Of a stretch of 64,000 bases of DNA, positions 27,168-34,985 are shown piece after piece. This DNA comes from Myxococcaceae bacterium. Its GTDB lineage: Bacteria > Myxococcota > Myxococcia > Myxococcales > Myxococcaceae. The notes below the pieces were generated by a model. The model worked only from the letters and a program-made list of their open reading frames with translations, had not been told where the DNA came from and made no database searches. Positions within the stretch are counted from its first letter, which is position 1; the number at the start of each line of letters is the position of its first letter. The translations under genes and the position numbers were made by a program. The DNA is taken from NCBI GenBank assembly GCA_016793725.1, contig JAEUJP010000511.1, forward strand, positions 1 to 64,000. The letters are read 5' to 3'.

Positions 27168-27698
27168 TCAGCAGCTGAGGTCGCACTCGCAGAACTCCGT
27201 AACGCACTGACCGGTAGGGCACTCGACCGGAGTCGGCGGATTGCATCGATTCGGGAAGAAGCCGCCGCCTGCCGTCGCTCCACCGCCTGCCGTCGCTCCA
27301 CCGCCTGCCGTCGCTCCACCGCCCGTCGCTCCACCGCCCGCCGTCGCTCCACCGCCCGCAGTCGCGCCACCGCCCGCAGTCGCTCCACCGCCCGCCGTCG
27401 TTCCACCGCCCGCCGTCGCTCCACCGCCCGCAGTCGCTCCACCGCCCGCCGTCGCTCCACCGCCCGCAGTCGCTCCACCGCCCGCAGTCGCTCCACCGCC
27501 CGCCGTCGCTCCACCGCCAGCCGTATCGTGTCCGCCGGCAGTCGCCACACCACCGGCGGCTCCGGCATCTGTCGAATGACAGAGCCCCTCTCGACAGAAG
27601 CCTCCGGCAGGGCAATCTCGATTGAACCGGCACTCGATGGGCGAGCACCCTGCACTCAGCCCCAACCAGACCGGAGCAACCCCCAGTAACTCCCGAAT
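27168..27698 (-). CDS. Cys-rich repeat lipoprotein, last gene of RiPP-like cluster
   Basis: The frame encodes a Cys-rich head (CRFNRDCPAGGFCREGLC), about 15 units of a GGGATA-type six-residue repeat, and a Cys-rich tail (CPTGQCVTEFCECDLSC). The start is unclear. No ATG or GTG exists between the in-frame stop and the head; TTG 27665 gives only six residues before a Cys, while ATT 27698 gives a full lipoprotein signal (RELLGVAPVWLGLSAGC). I use 27698 on that basis. It begins 10 bp after the HprK-like gene stop, so co-transcription is likely. The repeat is probably a surface spacer; Cys-rich heads of this kind are common in myxobacterial lipoproteins. Confidence 0.6.
   Translation of the reverse strand: MRELLGVAPVWLGLSAGCSPIECRFNRDCPAGGFCREGLCHSTDAGAAGGVATAGGHDTAGGGATAGGGATAGGGATAGGGATAGGGATAGGGATAGGGTTAGGGATAGGGATAGGGATAGGGATGGGATAGGGATAGGGATAGGGFFPNRCNPPTPVECPTGQCVTEFCECDLSC
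27262..27530. repeat. 18-bp coding tandem repeat
   Basis: About 15 copies of an 18-bp unit of the form CGCCGTCGCTCCACCGCC (plus strand) with CGCAGTCGC variants and one 15-bp unit. It encodes the GGGATA repeats of the minus-strand gene. Units differ mainly at one silent position, which suggests recent slippage or gene conversion. Confidence 0.9.
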
Positions 27699-27708
27699 GG
27701 GTGCAAGA

Positions 27709-28461
27709 CTATCTCTTCAAGGAGCGCTGGAGAAACGCGCCAACGACGGGGTCTTTTCGAAACGTCAGCCGCTGAACCCCTACGCGGTCGACAAGCGCCA
27801 GCACGCGGCGCACAGCCTCGGCTGGCGACATCTCTTCACTGGTGCCGCGATAGAGCTGGCCGAGAAGCTCGGGTATCGCAGTCGTGGCGGGCACGACGTC
27901 GAGCTGCTCGTGAACGCCCTTCGTCAGGAGCAACAGCGACTCGAGCCTGACATCTCCCGGCGTGCCCGGCGTCTCAGTGTCGGAGCGAAACGGCGTGCCA
28001 AACAACCGGCCGTCGGGGAACAACTGCACGATCTCATCGGTCAGCAGAGTCGCGTCGCCTGGCGGCCCGCAAGACAGACGCGCGAGCGTCGACTTGCCCG
28101 CGGTACTGTGCCCGATCGCAGCGAAGCCGCGATCGCCCCACGCGAAGCCACAGCCGTGCATCAGCACCCCGCCCTGGCGAAACGTCGAAATCTGCCACGC
28201 GATGCGCAACACCGACTCCGCGGCCCACTTGTCGTCCGGAATGTGGGCTTCGAGCAGCTCGCCTTTCACTCGATAGAAGCCCCACGGTGCTGGTGAACCC
28301 TCGAGCGCACGCGCCCCATCGAGTTGCGCGACACGCCGCACCACGAGCGCCGGTGCGTCAGCCGCAACAACAAAATTCACGTGCAGACATCGCTCAGCAG
28401 CCAGCCGGAGCAGACTCGCGTCGAGGTCGAGTGTCTGACCCGCGCAGCGTAGGAGACTCAC
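27709..28461 (-). CDS. HprK-like kinase of peptide-modification type
   Basis: 250 residues from GTG 28461, which overlaps the upstream stop (GTGA). It has the P-loop GHSTAGKST (counted residues 117-125), preceded by GVLMHGCGFAW as in HprK-related proteins. A Walker B-like TLLTDEIVQLF and GTPFRSDTETPGTPG follow. The canonical HPr kinase has the P-loop as GxSGxGKS and two Asp; here the second is Glu (TDE). No HPr or PTS gene is nearby. HprK-like kinases in lasso-peptide clusters phosphorylate the precursor (paeninodin work, as I recall it), and related proteins occur with PqqD-like proteins. Here it sits in a PqqD / small Cys-rich peptide cluster, so the peptide may be its substrate (inference). 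Confidence 0.82.
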   Translation of the reverse strand: MSLLRCAGQTLDLDASLLRLAAERCLHVNFVVAADAPALVVRRVAQLDGARALEGSPAPWGFYRVKGELLEAHIPDDKWAAESVLRIAWQISTFRQGGVLMHGCGFAWGDRGFAAIGHSTAGKSTLARLSCGPPGDATLLTDEIVQLFPDGRLFGTPFRSDTETPGTPGDVRLESLLLLTKGVHEQLDVVPATTAIPELLGQLYRGTSEEMSPAEAVRRVLALVDRVGVQRLTFRKDPVVGAFLQRSLKR

Positions 28462-29150
28462 GCGAGCGCCCGCTCGAGCTGTTCTTCGACACCGAGATTC
28501 CGCGCCCAGACGGGAACCGCGATCGACACCCCGGTAGAACGCCAGGCAACGCCCAGCCAACGCCCTCCCTGAGACGTCGCCACCCACAGGTCGCCGCGCG
28601 CTCCTGCCGCCATGACGCTGCCGATCACGCTGCCGCCCAACACGCCGCTCGCGAGCTGTACGGCGCGCTCCAGCTCTTCGGCCTCTGCGACGCGCACCGC
28701 GGGTGCCCCCACCAGAAGACGACGCACGGGCCTGCCGATGTTCAACAGCGCATTGACCGCGCCCTTCACCGTCTCTCGCACCAACGGGTTCGAGAGCGCC
28801 CGATGGCCAACCAAGACGGCCGGCGCCGGGAGCGGAAGCTCTCGCCCGAACCGCCTGACGGCAACGGCGCGGCCGAGTGTGCGGCCCGGCTGAGGGTCTC
28901 TAACGCCGAGGTAGCTCGAGGTGATCAGTGGCGATACCGCCGACACCACGTGCGCGACGAACTGACCGCCGAGCAGCATGACGGCGATGTCACCTTCACG
29001 AAGCGCCTCACTCTCGCAGCGCTCGACCAACAGGTCATCGCCGCTGAGCAGCAAAGGCACCATGCTGGTGCCCATCGTTCGAAACCACTGCCGCGCACCC
29101 ATCGGCCGCGCGGCGAACAGCTCGAGGAGCCTCAGAGCTCCGGAGGACAC
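28458..29150 (-). CDS. S24/S26 signal-peptidase-like protein
   Basis: 230 residues if GTG 29150 is used; it overlaps the peptide gene by 19 bp. ATG 29102 is the alternative. The N-terminal half has the peptidase signature: FRTMGTSMVPLLLSGDDLLV with Ser29, then EGDIAVMLLGGQFVAHVV. His67 stands where Lys is found in bacterial LepB, as in the ER/archaeal/SipW-type Ser-His enzymes. No transmembrane anchor is evident. The C-terminal half (about 130 residues) is not recognised. It could remove the leader of the peptide encoded just upstream (inference). Confidence 0.72.
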   Translation of the reverse strand: MSSGALRLLELFAARPMGARQWFRTMGTSMVPLLLSGDDLLVERCESEALREGDIAVMLLGGQFVAHVVSAVSPLITSSYLGVRDPQPGRTLGRAVAVRRFGRELPLPAPAVLVGHRALSNPLVRETVKGAVNALLNIGRPVRRLLVGAPAVRVAEAEELERAVQLASGVLGGSVIGSVMAAGARGDLWVATSQGGRWLGVAWRSTGVSIAVPVWARNLGVEEQLERALA

Positions 29151-29323
29151 AACGTGTTGTTCTCGATGCAGCAGTCGCAGGGCATGCAGTACTCGAAACC
29201 CGGGCCGCACGTCACCATCAACAGCTTCGGCTGCTCATGGAGGCGCACCGTCTTCACGACCGGTGAGCGGTAGCGTTTCTTGCGGCGGGGGGTCACTGAG
29301 TCGTTGCTCGGCGTCACTGCCAT
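29132..29323 (-). CDS. Candidate RiPP precursor peptide, six Cys
   Basis: 63 residues. The N-terminal part is basic and Cys-free (TPRRKKRYRSPVVKTVRL, then HEQPKLLMVT). The C-terminal 25 residues hold six Cys at 39, 46, 49, 51, 52 and 59 (YCMPCDCCIENN). The leader pattern, a basic patch with Y.SP.V followed by E..KLL, resembles many short RiPP precursors known to me. ATG 29323 has a good ribosome site (29331-29337). The gene overlaps the upstream gene by 10 bp and the downstream peptidase-like gene by 19 bp, so it is embedded in the operon. An uncleaved small metal-binding protein is the alternative. Confidence 0.72.
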   Translation of the reverse strand: MAVTPSNDSVTPRRKKRYRSPVVKTVRLHEQPKLLMVTCGPGFEYCMPCDCCIENNTLCPPEL

Positions 29324-32300
29324 ACGAAGACCTTTCCAATACCGTCTAGATGATCGGCGACCGCGAGGTCGAGCTGAGAATCGCCGTTGAAGTTGCCGAT
29401 CACGACCGCGGTACCCATCGATGAGCCTGTCGCGAGCGGAGAGATCTTCGACCGGTAGAAGCGGGCACCCGCAGCATTGTCGAACGGCGTCATGCCACCG
29501 CGGTTCGGGTAGATGAACACGCCGGTGGTCGTGAGACTGGTCGCCGCCGAGTAGCTGCCGATGAAGAGGTCGAGACGCCCGTCGCCGTCGAAGTCGACGA
29601 CCTGGAAGTCGGTGCCGGCCTGGAAGCTGCCGACCTCGGCGATGGTGGCCGACGGTGAGCCGGCCGAAGGGAAGGTGGCGGTGCGATCGGCGTAGATGTA
29701 GACGGCGCTGTTCTGAGGGTCGCTGACGAACAGATCGCTCGCCGTGCTCATCATGACGTCGACGTCGCCGATCGCGCGTGAACCAAAGCCCCGCTCCAGG
29801 TCACCCGAGCTGACTCCGGGGCTCATCGTCTGGAAGGCAGAGCTCGAGGGGAAGGTCATGCCCGCCGAGCCCGCGTTCACCGTGGCTCCAGAGAACATGT
29901 AGAGGCTGTTGAGGACCTGGAACGAGGCCGGAATCGCGAAGTCTTTCGGCCCCGTGGTACCCGCGCGACCGAGGTTCGCGTAGCCACCCGAGCGACGGCC
30001 AAAGCGCGCGTTCGCCGGCAACGTCGCCTGCGGAGGTCCGGTGAAGATGCGGTCGGCGCTGGTCGAGAGAATCGGTTGGGGGAGCGCCTTCCACGCGGCC
30101 TGCGAGCGGCCGTACCAGAGGTACACATTGCCCGCGCGATTCGTGCCCTCGACCGGCGCGCTGATGGCGATTTCGTCGAGACCGTCTTCGTTGATGTCGG
30201 GGATGAACGCCAGCGCGCGGCCAAAGTTGCCGGTCGCAACCGTGCCCGAGAACCGCACGTAGTTGGCGGCAGTCGTGTCGAGCTGCGTGCCCGCGCCACC
30301 GAAGTAGAGGACTGCGATGCCCGCAGTGGCCGGCGCGCCGGCACCGAGCCCAGCGTGGCTGAACGAGCTCACGAGCACATCGTTGCTCGTCGTCGACGAG
30401 GGCTTACCGACGGCGATCGGGCGACCCCAGCCGACATTGGTAGTGCCGTCATGCGAGACGATCGCCTGAGGTGTCGCACCGAGACCGGTCGCGCTGCCGT
30501 AATAGACGTAGACGTTGTTCACGGCGCTGGCGTCGTTGCCGACGACGAGGTCATCGAAGCTGTCGGCGTTGATGCGCCCCGCCGCCATGTACATGCCGAA
30601 GAAGTCGCTCGTGGCACCGCCAACACGCGGGTTCGCGAACGCCTGGCGAGTGGCCGTCAGCGGGTTGTCGACACGCATCGCCGTCTGGAACGTCGAGTAG
30701 TTGCCAACCTCGTCGAACGCGCGCACGTAGAAGTAGTACGAATTGAGGGTCGGCACTCGAATCGTGGCCGAAGTCATGGTGCCGGTGGACTCCGGGTTCG
30801 CTTTGGACGAGTCGAAGAAGTCGTCAGACGTCGCCAGCCCCGTCGGCTGAATGAGGGCCGTGGTCCACCGCACGTCATAGCCCGTCGGAGTGCCCGCAGC
30901 CTCGTCGTCGCCGACAGCATTCCACGTGGCCGAGACGTTGGCTGCGCGATCTTGCCCGGCGATCACGTTCGCCGATACCGTCGGCGCGTTCGGCGCGACC
31001 ACGTCGACCGTCGCGTTCAACGTCGTCTCGATCTGGTTGCCGGCAGCATCACGCACGCGCACGATCAGTGGGCCCGTCGTGCTTTGACCCAGCGTCAGCG
31101 TACCGTTGAACGTTTGCGGGGTGCTCGCGACGCCCGTCGCCGGGAAGACCGGGCTGCCGTTGTAGAGCACGGTAATCTGGCCACCGACCGCGTCGATCAC
31201 GTTGACGCTGAACGCCACCTGACCATCAGCCATGCCGGTGTTCGCGTCGACAACGTAGCCCGCGGCGCCGAGGCGAACGTTGTTGTTCCCGGGCGCGACG
31301 ACCACGAGCGTCGTGCCCGCAGGCGTGAGCCCGCTGACCTGCGGGTCGATCAGGTCGACCGTGATGTCGACGGCGTCGAGGGTTGCTTGCACCCCGTTGT
31401 CCATTCGGGCTTCGAAGTGTTCGGTTCCGCTCGGCAGCGAGATGTTGAACGAGAACTGACCCATTCCATTCGTCGTCACCATGTCGACCTGGGTCCCGGG
31501 CGTGCCACGGAAGAGCCGAACGAGCGCATTGGGGCAGTTCGCCGCCTCGCCAACCAACGCGCGCTCGACCGTCGTCGGCGACGCAGGCATCGTGTCGTCG
31601 GGCTTGCCGAACGAGACCGCAGCGGCCGCGGGCGACGTGAAGACCACGTTGCACCCTGCGTTCTGAACGCTGATCACCTGCGTCGCCGTGCAAAAGTTGC
31701 CCGCAGGGTCGGTGAGCGTGGCGGTGATCGTCTGCATCATGCCGTCGACGTAGTTGATGACGCCCGTCGAGGTGCCCGCAGCCATCGCGGGCAGATTGCC
31801 GCCGCCGCCGGCCGTCGAAGTGATGACCGGGACGATGCCGTTGGCGTTGGTCGCGATGACGGTCGTCGACAGCGCCCCATTGCTGAAGACGGTCGACCCC
31901 ATCGGCTGCGTGATCATGCACGCCGTGGGCGGCTGATTGTCGACGCGCACGTTCACCACCGTGCTGGTGGTGCTGTTGAGCGCGGCGTCGACGCACGTCG
32001 CCGTCAACGTGTAGTCGAGCTCACCCGTACCCGAGACGGTGAAGTCGTTCGAGTACAGACCGCCGGTCGCGGCGCCGCTGGCGTTCATCATCGCAGCGCC
32101 ACCGAGCGCGATGGTAACGCCGGTCATGCCAGTGACATCGGAGGAGGTGCTGACCGTCGCCCGGAGCTGATAGCCCATGACGGCCGACGCATCATCAGCC
32201 GTACCCAGCTGCGCCTTGGTCGGCGCCGTAAAGGTGCAGGTCGGAGCGACGCGGTCGACTCGCAGCGTCTTCACTGCCTCGGGGTTGATGGTGGTGTTGC

Positions 32301-34614
32301 CAACCGGGAAGTTGTTGGGGTTGTTCGCTGCATCGCTCACGCGCACTTCGAGCTCGAACGTCGCGTCGGTCGTGCCGGTCAGGTTGAGCCCGGTCAGCGT
32401 CACCGCGGCGGCGTTCGCAGTCACCGTGCCGGTGCCAACATCCATCGAGTTGGCGGTATTGACGACTGTCACCGCGCGACCATTCTCGACGCCCGTGAAC
32501 GTGACGTTCATCACCGGGTTGCCCATCGGCAGCTCCGTGCCGTTGAGAATGTTGTCGTTGTTCGCGTCGCCGCCGAACGTGATGGCCGTGACCCTGGGCC
32601 GAATGCTGTCGACCGTGTACGCGAGGTAGGCGCCCGACGAGTGACCGCCCGCGCCGAATACGAACACTGGCTTCAAGCTGTACACCCCGTCCGGGAACGT
32701 GAACGTGTTCGACGGCGTCGGCACGTTCGTCTGGTACGTGAAGCCCATGCCATCGGGGCAACCCACGCCCGCATCCGTCAGCGCGACATCGGAGCAGATC
32801 GTGCAGGTCGCTCCGACAGGGGTCGTGGGCTGATACTGCAACAGGCGCTGCACGCCGGGCGTCGTCGTCGAGACATCCGCGCTGACGTTGATGATGCCGG
32901 CAGCCGGCTGAAGGATCGTCGGCGTATCGAGCGCGACGACGACAATCTGGGTGACTGGCGTCATGTTCCCCATGCCGTCGTCAATCGTCGCGACGAAGGT
33001 CAGCTGAGCCCCACCAGAGTCCGTCAACGTGGCGCTCTGCTGAAAGACACCCCCGGCGCTTGCGGGCCCCATGCCGATCAGCGTGCGCATCGCTCCGATC
33101 ACCTGCTCGATGCGAATGGTGCGCCCTGCGCACGCAGCGCTGGTCTGCGTGGCGAACGTGAACGTGAGCTGATTGCCCACGACGACCCCGCTTGAACGCG
33201 TGAGCGTCGCGGGGCTCATCATCGGGTTCGTGAACACCAGCGGGCAGCCGGCGCCACCCGTGACGGTGAAGGTTGACGTCGCCGGAGCACTCGTGTTGCC
33301 GGCCGCATCAGTCACCGTGCAGCTGATGGTGTACGTGCCCGCCATGAAGTTGCCGGTGCCGGTCGCCGTGTTGCCGTTCACGTCGAAGGGCCCACCAATG
33401 CTGCCGTTGTTCGACGTGCACACCATCTGACTGTCTTCGACGTTCATCCCCTCGTCAGTGACATTCGCGGTCACCTGCATGGTGAACATGTTGAACGTGC
33501 CGCCGTTCGCAGGGGCAGTGATGGTGACCACCGGAGCTACGAAGTCGGACCTGACGGGGCGAGTCGCCGCGCACGTGTTGCCGGCCTCATCACGCACCGA
33601 CATTACAACCGTGTACAGAACGGCCCCTGCAGCGGGAATCGTGAAGTCGCGCAGCAGCCCACCGTTCATCGGAGGCTGAAAGCCCGTCGTCTGAGGCGTT
33701 GCGCCCCCCGTGAGCGAGAGCTCAATCTCGATGGGATTCGCGTCCATCGCTGTTCCAAACGTACGGAGCTGGTAGCCCGCCGCATTGGGGTCGGCGTCGT
33801 TGGCGGGCCCGATGATCGCGACCGACGGGTCGACCAACATGCACGTCGGTCGAACGCGATCGATGCTCAGCATGGTGCGCGCCTCGGGGTCGTTGGCGAC
33901 ATCGTGCGTACGCCCAGCGCAGGTGATTCGCGCTTCGAGGTTGTAGTCGCCCTGCATCGGGTTCGCGAAGCCCGTGAGCGTGACCGTCGCGACACCATTC
34001 ACGGGAATCATCGGCACCGTACCGCGAGCCGTCGACGAGCCGACCTCGGTGACCACGAGCGAACACCCCACCGCGTTCGTCGTCGCGATGTTCGCGATGA
34101 TGCCGCCCGCCGTCGTCGCTTCGGCGTCGTTCAAGATCTTGTCGTTGTTCGCGTCCCCCGCAAACGTGAAGCTCGTCACGTCGACCGCACCCGGCATCGC
34201 CGGGTCGACCGTCACATCGACCGTCGCCGCCCCCGAGCACGACGGCGAGTCGCCGACACCGGCGGTCTCGAGCACGACGCGCACGACGTTGTCGCCGGTC
34301 TGCAGCGGCACGCCCGAGAAGGTCGCCCGGTTGCCCGTCACGGTGCCCATCTGGGTCGCGCCGAAGCTGGTGTCGCTCGTCAGCCGGCTCTGCACGAGCG
34401 CGCCCGTCAAGTCGATGTCGGCGCCGTCGCGCTTCGCGCTCGCCGTGACGGTCAGGGTCGAGGGCACCGTCGCTCCGGCCGTCGGTGACTCGATGGTCAC
34501 CACGACGGTCGGGCACACCGGCGGGTTCGGGTCTTCGCCAGGGCAACGGCAGGCCCCCACGAACCCCATCGTCGCGATTGCCACTGCCCACCGCATCGAA
34601 GTCGCTCCACGCAT
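29314..34614 (-). CDS. Giant lipoprotein with Ig-like and FG-GAP repeats
   Basis: 1766 residues from ATG 34614, supported by AGGA upstream and a lipoprotein signal (MRWAVAIATMGFVGACRC). A GTG at 34689 overlapping the PqqD-like stop is the alternative. Residues up to about 1250 are repeated Ig/cadherin-like domains (for example TVVVTIESPTAGATVPS, VVTITAPANGGTFNM). Calcium-type loops GDANNDKILNDAEA and GGDANNDNILNGTEL lie among them. An FN3-like domain follows (YDVRWTTAL, YYFYVRAFDEVGNYS). The last 400 residues hold FG-GAP/integrin-alpha-like repeats (RINADSFDDLVVGND, DINEDGLDEIAISAP, VDFDGDGRLDLFIGS, GNFNGDSQLDLAVAD). It is probably displayed on the cell surface. Its place between the PqqD-like and peptide genes is unexplained. 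Confidence 0.88.
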   Translation of the reverse strand: MRGATSMRWAVAIATMGFVGACRCPGEDPNPPVCPTVVVTIESPTAGATVPSTLTVTASAKRDGADIDLTGALVQSRLTSDTSFGATQMGTVTGNRATFSGVPLQTGDNVVRVVLETAGVGDSPSCSGAATVDVTVDPAMPGAVDVTSFTFAGDANNDKILNDAEATTAGGIIANIATTNAVGCSLVVTEVGSSTARGTVPMIPVNGVATVTLTGFANPMQGDYNLEARITCAGRTHDVANDPEARTMLSIDRVRPTCMLVDPSVAIIGPANDADPNAAGYQLRTFGTAMDANPIEIELSLTGGATPQTTGFQPPMNGGLLRDFTIPAAGAVLYTVVMSVRDEAGNTCAATRPVRSDFVAPVVTITAPANGGTFNMFTMQVTANVTDEGMNVEDSQMVCTSNNGSIGGPFDVNGNTATGTGNFMAGTYTISCTVTDAAGNTSAPATSTFTVTGGAGCPLVFTNPMMSPATLTRSSGVVVGNQLTFTFATQTSAACAGRTIRIEQVIGAMRTLIGMGPASAGGVFQQSATLTDSGGAQLTFVATIDDGMGNMTPVTQIVVVALDTPTILQPAAGIINVSADVSTTTPGVQRLLQYQPTTPVGATCTICSDVALTDAGVGCPDGMGFTYQTNVPTPSNTFTFPDGVYSLKPVFVFGAGGHSSGAYLAYTVDSIRPRVTAITFGGDANNDNILNGTELPMGNPVMNVTFTGVENGRAVTVVNTANSMDVGTGTVTANAAAVTLTGLNLTGTTDATFELEVRVSDAANNPNNFPVGNTTINPEAVKTLRVDRVAPTCTFTAPTKAQLGTADDASAVMGYQLRATVSTSSDVTGMTGVTIALGGAAMMNASGAATGGLYSNDFTVSGTGELDYTLTATCVDAALNSTTSTVVNVRVDNQPPTACMITQPMGSTVFSNGALSTTVIATNANGIVPVITSTAGGGGNLPAMAAGTSTGVINYVDGMMQTITATLTDPAGNFCTATQVISVQNAGCNVVFTSPAAAAVSFGKPDDTMPASPTTVERALVGEAANCPNALVRLFRGTPGTQVDMVTTNGMGQFSFNISLPSGTEHFEARMDNGVQATLDAVDITVDLIDPQVSGLTPAGTTLVVVAPGNNNVRLGAAGYVVDANTGMADGQVAFSVNVIDAVGGQITVLYNGSPVFPATGVASTPQTFNGTLTLGQSTTGPLIVRVRDAAGNQIETTLNATVDVVAPNAPTVSANVIAGQDRAANVSATWNAVGDDEAAGTPTGYDVRWTTALIQPTGLATSDDFFDSSKANPESTGTMTSATIRVPTLNSYYFYVRAFDEVGNYSTFQTAMRVDNPLTATRQAFANPRVGGATSDFFGMYMAAGRINADSFDDLVVGNDASAVNNVYVYYGSATGLGATPQAIVSHDGTTNVGWGRPIAVGKPSSTTSNDVLVSSFSHAGLGAGAPATAGIAVLYFGGAGTQLDTTAANYVRFSGTVATGNFGRALAFIPDINEDGLDEIAISAPVEGTNRAGNVYLWYGRSQAAWKALPQPILSTSADRIFTGPPQATLPANARFGRRSGGYANLGRAGTTGPKDFAIPASFQVLNSLYMFSGATVNAGSAGMTFPSSSAFQTMSPGVSSGDLERGFGSRAIGDVDVMMSTASDLFVSDPQNSAVYIYADRTATFPSAGSPSATIAEVGSFQAGTDFQVVDFDGDGRLDLFIGSYSAATSLTTTGVFIYPNRGGMTPFDNAAGARFYRSKISPLATGSSMGTAVVIGNFNGDSQLDLAVADHLDGIGKVFVWQ
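29331..29337 (-). promoter_or_regulatory. Ribosome binding site of the six-Cys peptide
   Basis: GGAAAGG, read on the minus strand, ends 7 nt before the ATG at 29323. It lies within the last codons of the FG-GAP lipoprotein gene. It supports the peptide as a translated gene despite its small size. Confidence 0.65.
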
Positions 34615-34685: not shown

Positions 34686-34985
34686 TCACCGAACCGCTTC
34701 AAGCACCCGCTTCTCAACCAGCTCTGCGACGAACCTGACCGTCTCGCGCTCACACGTCACCCGCTCGACGTCGAACTCCTCGCACAACATCGACACAATC
34801 TCGCCCAGACTTCGCTCCCCATTCACCAGGTCCATGATGCGCTCCCCGACCTCCGACACCCCACCCTCGTCTTCGAACTGGTGAAAGCCCCCGTCTGCCG
34901 TCGCTGCGGCCCACCGCCCGCCCACACGCTGCGCCGCCGTCTCTTCCGGCACCCGCAGCACACTCGCGAGCGTCATCGTCTCCAC
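34686..34985 (-). CDS. PqqD-like protein (RiPP recognition element fold)
   Basis: 99 residues. The sequence follows the PqqD family: an N-terminal beta region (SVLRVPEETAAQRVGGRWA), the ISEVG-type turn GVSEVGERIMDLVNGERSLG, EIVSMLCEEFDVE and the C-terminal helix RFVAELVEKRVLEAV. PqqD-like proteins bind leader peptides of ribosomally made peptides and present them to modifying enzymes. The gene is first in the minus-strand cluster. It follows ctaB after a 98-bp gap that contains a GC hairpin (35018-35031) and a weak TTGTCA -35-like sequence, so the cluster may have its own promoter. ATG 34976 is an alternative start. Confidence 0.88.
   Translation of the reverse strand: METMTLASVLRVPEETAAQRVGGRWAAATADGGFHQFEDEGGVSEVGERIMDLVNGERSLGEIVSMLCEEFDVERVTCERETVRFVAELVEKRVLEAVR

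Follow-up and report, generated by a model that had tools for sequence, protein, structure and literature searches.

The small open reading frame at 29132–29323 on the minus strand of the window (the whole 64,000-nucleotide stretch of DNA analysed here) is a real, conserved gene and no chance ORF. Its identity as a precursor peptide composed of leader and core is supported, and we consider it probable that it belongs to an RRE-dependent, RiPP-type precursor system in which the peptide is matured by a kinase-like protein and an S24 peptidase and works with an FG-GAP lipoprotein. Many related bacteria have the gene set, which has the look of a peptide-maturation system not yet described; a literature search, with subscription journals thinly covered, turned up no published account of it, most of the papers returned being on lasso peptides or on RiPPs in general. 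The features on which the argument draws are as follows.

29132–29323, minus strand: precursor peptide gene, 63 residues plus stop; leader approximately residues 1–38, core approximately residues 39–63 with six Cys
29255–29281, minus strand: leader motif KKRYRSPVV, residues 15–23, probable RRE-binding site by gap-free alignment of 36 precursors
29135–29209, minus strand: probable core CGPGFEYCMPCDCCIENNTLCPPEL, placed approximately from the sequence, where conservation drops
29331–29337, minus strand: ribosome-binding site GGAAAGG, 7 nt before the precursor ATG
34686–34985, minus strand: discrete PqqD-family protein (RiPP recognition element, RRE), 99 residues; PF05402, 9e-12
29314–34614, minus strand: giant lipoprotein, secreted, combining Ig-like (Big) domains with an FG-GAP propeller at the C-terminus; PF01839, 2.5e-17, and PF13517
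28458–29150, minus strand: peptidase of the S24/LexA fold, Ser in GTSM and His in AHVV, then a shortened GNAT-like C-terminal part
27709–28461, minus strand: HprK/PEPCK-fold P-loop kinase-like protein with invariant Walker A, His102 and Asp142-Glu143

These genes follow one another on the minus strand in the order PqqD, giant FG-GAP/Ig lipoprotein, precursor peptide, S24 peptidase and HprK-like kinase. Ten nucleotides (29314–29323) are common to the precursor gene and the FG-GAP gene upstream of it; with the S24 gene the precursor gene shares 19 nt if the peptidase starts at the homology-supported GTG at 29150, and the S24 and HprK-like genes share a 4-nt overlap, so that the genes look like one tight operon. 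The start of the lipoprotein gene is placed at 34614 or 34596 from the lipobox FVGAC and an upstream AGAGGAA, the longest ORF starting at 34689. The initial annotation had described a 63-residue frame that overlaps both neighbours, has its own ribosome site and encodes a basic, Cys-free leader before a Cys-containing core, and re-reading the sequence bears this out: the frame starts with ATG, GGAAAGG lies 7 nt 5′ of it, Cys occupy positions 39, 46, 49, 51, 52 and 59, and residues 1–38 contain no Cys and include R13, R14, K15, K16, R17, R19, K24 and R27. The small size that was said to make such genes easy for annotation to miss was noted again. On the 3′ side of the HprK-like gene, a lipoprotein-like ORF (27168–27665, minus strand, TTG start) with a Gly/Ala/Thr-rich repeat and Cys-rich ends may be part of the operon; it has a weak Myxo_Cys_RPT match, and no homologue was seen in the other loci.

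At a GC content of about 66–70%, a bare ORF of 63 codons says little. Among ORFs of comparable size taken without selection, our background yardstick, 4.5% have a YxxP-type motif together with at least two Cys, so the proof rests on position and profile and not on the motif alone; the loose motif [KR]..[YWF]..P by itself occurs in about 10% of background ORFs and was for that reason set aside as proof. Run against the 1,043 ORFs of the window, an HMM built from 26 other precursors, with that of the window left out, singled out the window precursor (E = 8.4e-9; runner-up E = 0.04). A leave-one-out PSSM over 20 leader positions ranked the window leader first of 98,817 segments with 29.4 bits; the highest score among the remaining 98,816 was 17.9 bits. 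Used as a query in the genomes of relatives, the peptide itself gave few matches (best 9.8e-5, in G021), and homologous loci were reached through the neighbouring S24 gene. At 30 of the 31 PqqD–FG-GAP loci read in the same family (L152 is the exception), the next ORF after the adjacent PqqD and FG-GAP genes encodes, at the equivalent place, a peptide of about 45–65 residues with the same leader. Precursor-profile matches on the opposite strand near S24 genes (L108, L109, L111) were judged to be antisense noise. Among precursor homologues within one genus, pS is 0.12–0.21 and pN 0.01–0.04 in frame, with the relation reversed in the other frames, and the comparison of synonymous with non-synonymous change that had been proposed as a check thus indicates purifying selection in the precursor frame among close relatives. 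We give next to no credence to a chance ORF in a high-GC genome, an explanation that draws on the frequency of YxxP-like motifs in spurious Arg/Pro-rich ORFs (about 10%) and is contradicted by the leave-one-out profile, the purifying selection and the synteny.

The gap-free, Tyr-anchored alignment of 36 precursors, four of which come from the paralogous system described below, yields a common leader consensus, [KR][KR]xYxxPx[VIL][RK][ST]E. As alignment anchors, Tyr and Pro are partly circular, and columns −3, −2, +5, +7 and +8 are free of this circularity. Information falls from about 2–4 bits at the strongest leader positions to about 1 bit in the core, in agreement with the prediction of a variable core beside a conserved leader. 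The accompanying prediction of a conserved Cys spacing did not hold: the exact spacing of the window precursor is absent elsewhere in the set, its nearest relatives included, and cores contain from 0 to 8 Cys (4 in G021, 2 in many genera). YxxP is listed among RRE recognition sequences in a 2025 survey (PMC12710340), and KKRYRSPVV is the probable RRE-binding site by likeness of sequence. The conserved leader and hypervariable core, the PqqD (RRE) gene in the operon and the YxxP in the leader together support the term precursor peptide, which had been offered for a candidate.

As regards the partner proteins, the solved structure nearest to the window PqqD is that of TbiB1, a lasso RRE (5v1u, 4e-5). 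The Pfam match of the S24 peptidase is weak (PF00717, 9e-4), and its AF2 model (pLDDT 91) leads in Foldseek to the LexA C-terminal domain. Its conserved Ser is accompanied by a conserved His; in LexA and UmuD, Lys is the partner of the catalytic Ser. From the modelled fold and the invariant residues we presume peptidase activity with a Ser-His dyad. Many relatives have a GNAT domain fused to the peptidase, which in the window is shortened. The HprK-like protein (AF2 pLDDT 93.7) leads in Foldseek to PEPCK and HprK, with PEPCK ranked above HprK, and in sequence its resemblance to HprK is weak (E 0.01 with the best HprK in the PDB); Walker A, His102 and Asp-Glu are kept in all aligned homologues, and these residues and the predicted fold suggest kinase activity. 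A search of genome contigs with the HprK alignment (Walker A pattern only) gave one weak Anaerolineales match. The HprK-like protein is the sole candidate for modifying the core: the window operon encodes none of the canonical enzymes of RiPP modification (cyclase, radical SAM, YcaO, LanM), and the window cluster has no exporter, the EamA-type transporter gene being missing there. Only generic matches came up when the same genome was searched for a radical SAM partner enzyme.

Outside the family, nine loci in five further families within the order and class (L170, L172, L173, L174, L180, L184, L185, L186 and L189) show, immediately upstream of an HprK relative, a short ORF bearing the leader motif of the precursors. 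Eight of them have a PqqD-family gene; the ninth, L173, is truncated by the end of its contig. FG-GAP proteins are recognised by Pfam in L172, L174 and L189 and by sequence in L173, L180 and L184, and L186 has no FG-GAP gene upstream of the precursor. Three of these modules, all with Cys-poor or Cys-free cores, contain radical SAM genes, listed here with HprK oriented on the plus strand.

L184, 10058–11209: radical SAM gene, recognised by CxxxCxxC-type sequence
L186, 7956–9383: radical SAM gene, recognised by Pfam
L189, 9747–10769: radical SAM gene, recognised by Pfam

At 21 loci an EamA-type transporter gene, a candidate exporter, follows the S24 peptidase about 1.2–3.3 kb after the HprK start. 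Different genera, and to some extent different families, share the flanking etfBA or TPR-UbiA genes, which suggests vertical inheritance of the module and not mobility.

Two genera, g23 and g26, are mostly without the module, which one genome (G161) keeps, and retain an S24-GNAT gene alone beside etfBA, the genes that flank the whole module in other genera. Ser or His of the presumed dyad is lost in six of eight such orphans (L059, L067, L075, L077, L081 and L082; both are kept in L057 and L060), and both residues are kept in 24 of 24 aligned peptidases from module-bearing genera. This pattern of residues fits, and does not prove, a role of the precursor as substrate of the S24 peptidase.

From the observed gene, leader, gene order and conservation we infer a course of binding, phosphorylation, cleavage, export and function. 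The peptide gene overlaps the giant FG-GAP lipoprotein gene within one operon and encodes an N-terminal leader bearing [KR][KR]xYxxPx[VIL] and a Cys-rich, hypervariable C-terminal core. The discrete PqqD protein would bind the YxxP leader and present the precursor, on which the HprK-like protein would act, most simply by phosphorylating a residue of the core or the junction, by analogy with lasso precursors: the bsf lasso pathway has a YxxPxL precursor that is phosphorylated by a kinase of the HprK type (PMC10368454). The S24 peptidase would use its Ser-His pair to cut the leader off near Cys39, and in many relatives the fused GNAT domain could acetylate the new N-terminus, the shortened counterpart in the window being probably inactive. 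The product would be exported, in many relatives (the window not among them) perhaps by the EamA-type transporter, would form disulfides, and would work with the FG-GAP lipoprotein, the near-constant companion of the precursor gene.

This RiPP-type reading is weakened because replacing Tyr and Pro of YxxP by Ala in the lasso precursor BsfA hardly affected processing (PMC10368454), because the window operon lacks a canonical modifying enzyme and its cluster an exporter, and because the similarity of the HprK-like protein is weak and the PEPCK fold ranks above HprK. It is backed by the radical SAM genes, which encode a typical RiPP enzyme, at three loci outside the family, by the proximity of the window PqqD to TbiB1 together with YxxP as an RRE recognition motif, and by the retention of Ser and His alongside the module and their loss in six of the eight orphans. 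With RRE-dependent RiPP pathways in general, the system shares an RRE/PqqD gene (PF05402, 9e-12; TbiB1, 4e-5) and a short precursor whose leader is conserved and whose core varies (36 precursors; leave-one-out).

Lasso pathways of the bsf type, with split B1 and an HprK-type kinase, likewise have a discrete PqqD-family RRE, a YxxP leader and an HprK-like gene, and the bsf cluster also has an FG-GAP gene at its border (PMC10368454). The window system differs in its S24-type peptidase, in that no B2 leader peptidase rose above the cut-off in the draft genome and no cyclase C was found near, in its multi-Cys cores, and in having the FG-GAP lipoprotein gene as a near-constant operon member. Although leader motif and RRE resemble those of lasso pathways and HprK-type kinases tailor lasso peptides (PMC10368454), we hold it to be very improbable that the module makes a macrocyclic RiPP of a known type, such as a lasso peptide, by means of a cyclase encoded elsewhere in the genome: PF13471 (the B2 leader peptidase) did not rise above the cut-off in the 9.75 Mb draft genome, no Asn-synthetase-like cyclase occurs among the neighbours scanned, and the cores have no consistent ring-forming start. 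An unmodified secreted disulfide peptide, knottin-like and either antimicrobial or signalling, would have a leader that acts as a pro-region, either in transport or against toxicity, with the kinase-like protein as regulator of the system. C-C-CC-C-C, the Cys order of cystine-knot peptides, does recur in several genera (G047, G049, G004, L146 and L150), whereas the window precursor reads C-C-C-CC-C, on which ground a cystine-knot peptide was rejected for it; since many genera moreover have 2 Cys only, the leader is no Sec signal peptide and an RRE gene lies beside the peptide at nearly all loci, we find this account very unlikely.

A metal- or redox-binding Cys protein that is trimmed by the S24 peptidase without alteration of any side chain (compare nickel superoxide dismutase and its maturation protease), with PqqD and the kinase-like protein as chaperones or regulators, strikes us as unlikely. 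It would accommodate the Cys-rich cores, the window operon without a classic modifying enzyme, and the weak resemblance of the paralogous peptidase to the NiSOD maturation protease model TIGR02754 (6.7e-5), but a number and spacing of Cys that vary from 0 to 8 among homologues would be unusual for a metal site, and sister modules combine radical SAM enzymes with cores poor in or free of Cys. Among known systems, HPr-rel-A (HprK_rel_A TIGR04352, PqqD_rel_X TIGR04353) and SynChlorMet (ScmC, ScmD) show the same pairing of HprK-like and PqqD proteins, and the paralogous system of two sister genera has weak matches to their models, far below the curated cut-offs. The window system adds the S24 peptidase, the FG-GAP lipoprotein and a precursor family of its own, and its membership of HPr-rel-A was rejected, the HprK-like protein matching only TIGR04355 (16 bits versus 200) and TIGR04353 being absent from the models listed for the PqqD. 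PQQ biosynthesis (PqqA-PqqD-PqqE) likewise has a peptide precursor presented by PqqD, and the paralogous system pairs with a PQQ_2-type propeller protein; the window operon, by contrast, is without PqqE and PqqC and has an unrelated precursor, with the kinase-like protein and S24 peptidase instead.

More tentatively, and as a possibility we would not yet favour, the RRE-dependent precursor system may be an ancient, mostly vertical system of the phylum (PqqD, HprK-like kinase, S24(-GNAT), no cyclase) whose peptides are ligands or subunits of the FG-GAP/Ig lipoprotein. If so, the hypervariable Cys-rich peptides would belong to the cell surface as physiological components and would not be antibiotics. 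The analysis itself connects RRE-guided peptide maturation with a giant lipoprotein of the cell surface in many genera of a single phylum and names the precursor genes. The PqqD/HprK-like/S24 gene sets, for which our literature search with its incomplete coverage found no published role, would gain a function. Peptide maturation by an HprK-like kinase and a LexA/signal-peptidase-like enzyme without a classic cyclase can now be tested.

In place of the module, g23 and g26 carry a paralogous system ordered S24-PqqD-lipoprotein-PQQ_2 propeller-precursor-HprK, the full gene set of which is seen in L155. It occurs in these two sister genera and a few others.

L154, 4668–10035: paralogous system
L155, 4756–9900: paralogous system
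L156, L157 and L158: paralogous system

Its precursor reads Yx[AP]PAILWEQPFVALAQ...C...C, and the system in L154 and L155 lies upstream of a miaA-like gene. The genome to which the window belongs yielded no HprK relative of the paralogous type. The same genome has a second PqqD-family gene (L198, G000:C905, 2781–2963, minus strand), near a propeller-like ORF.
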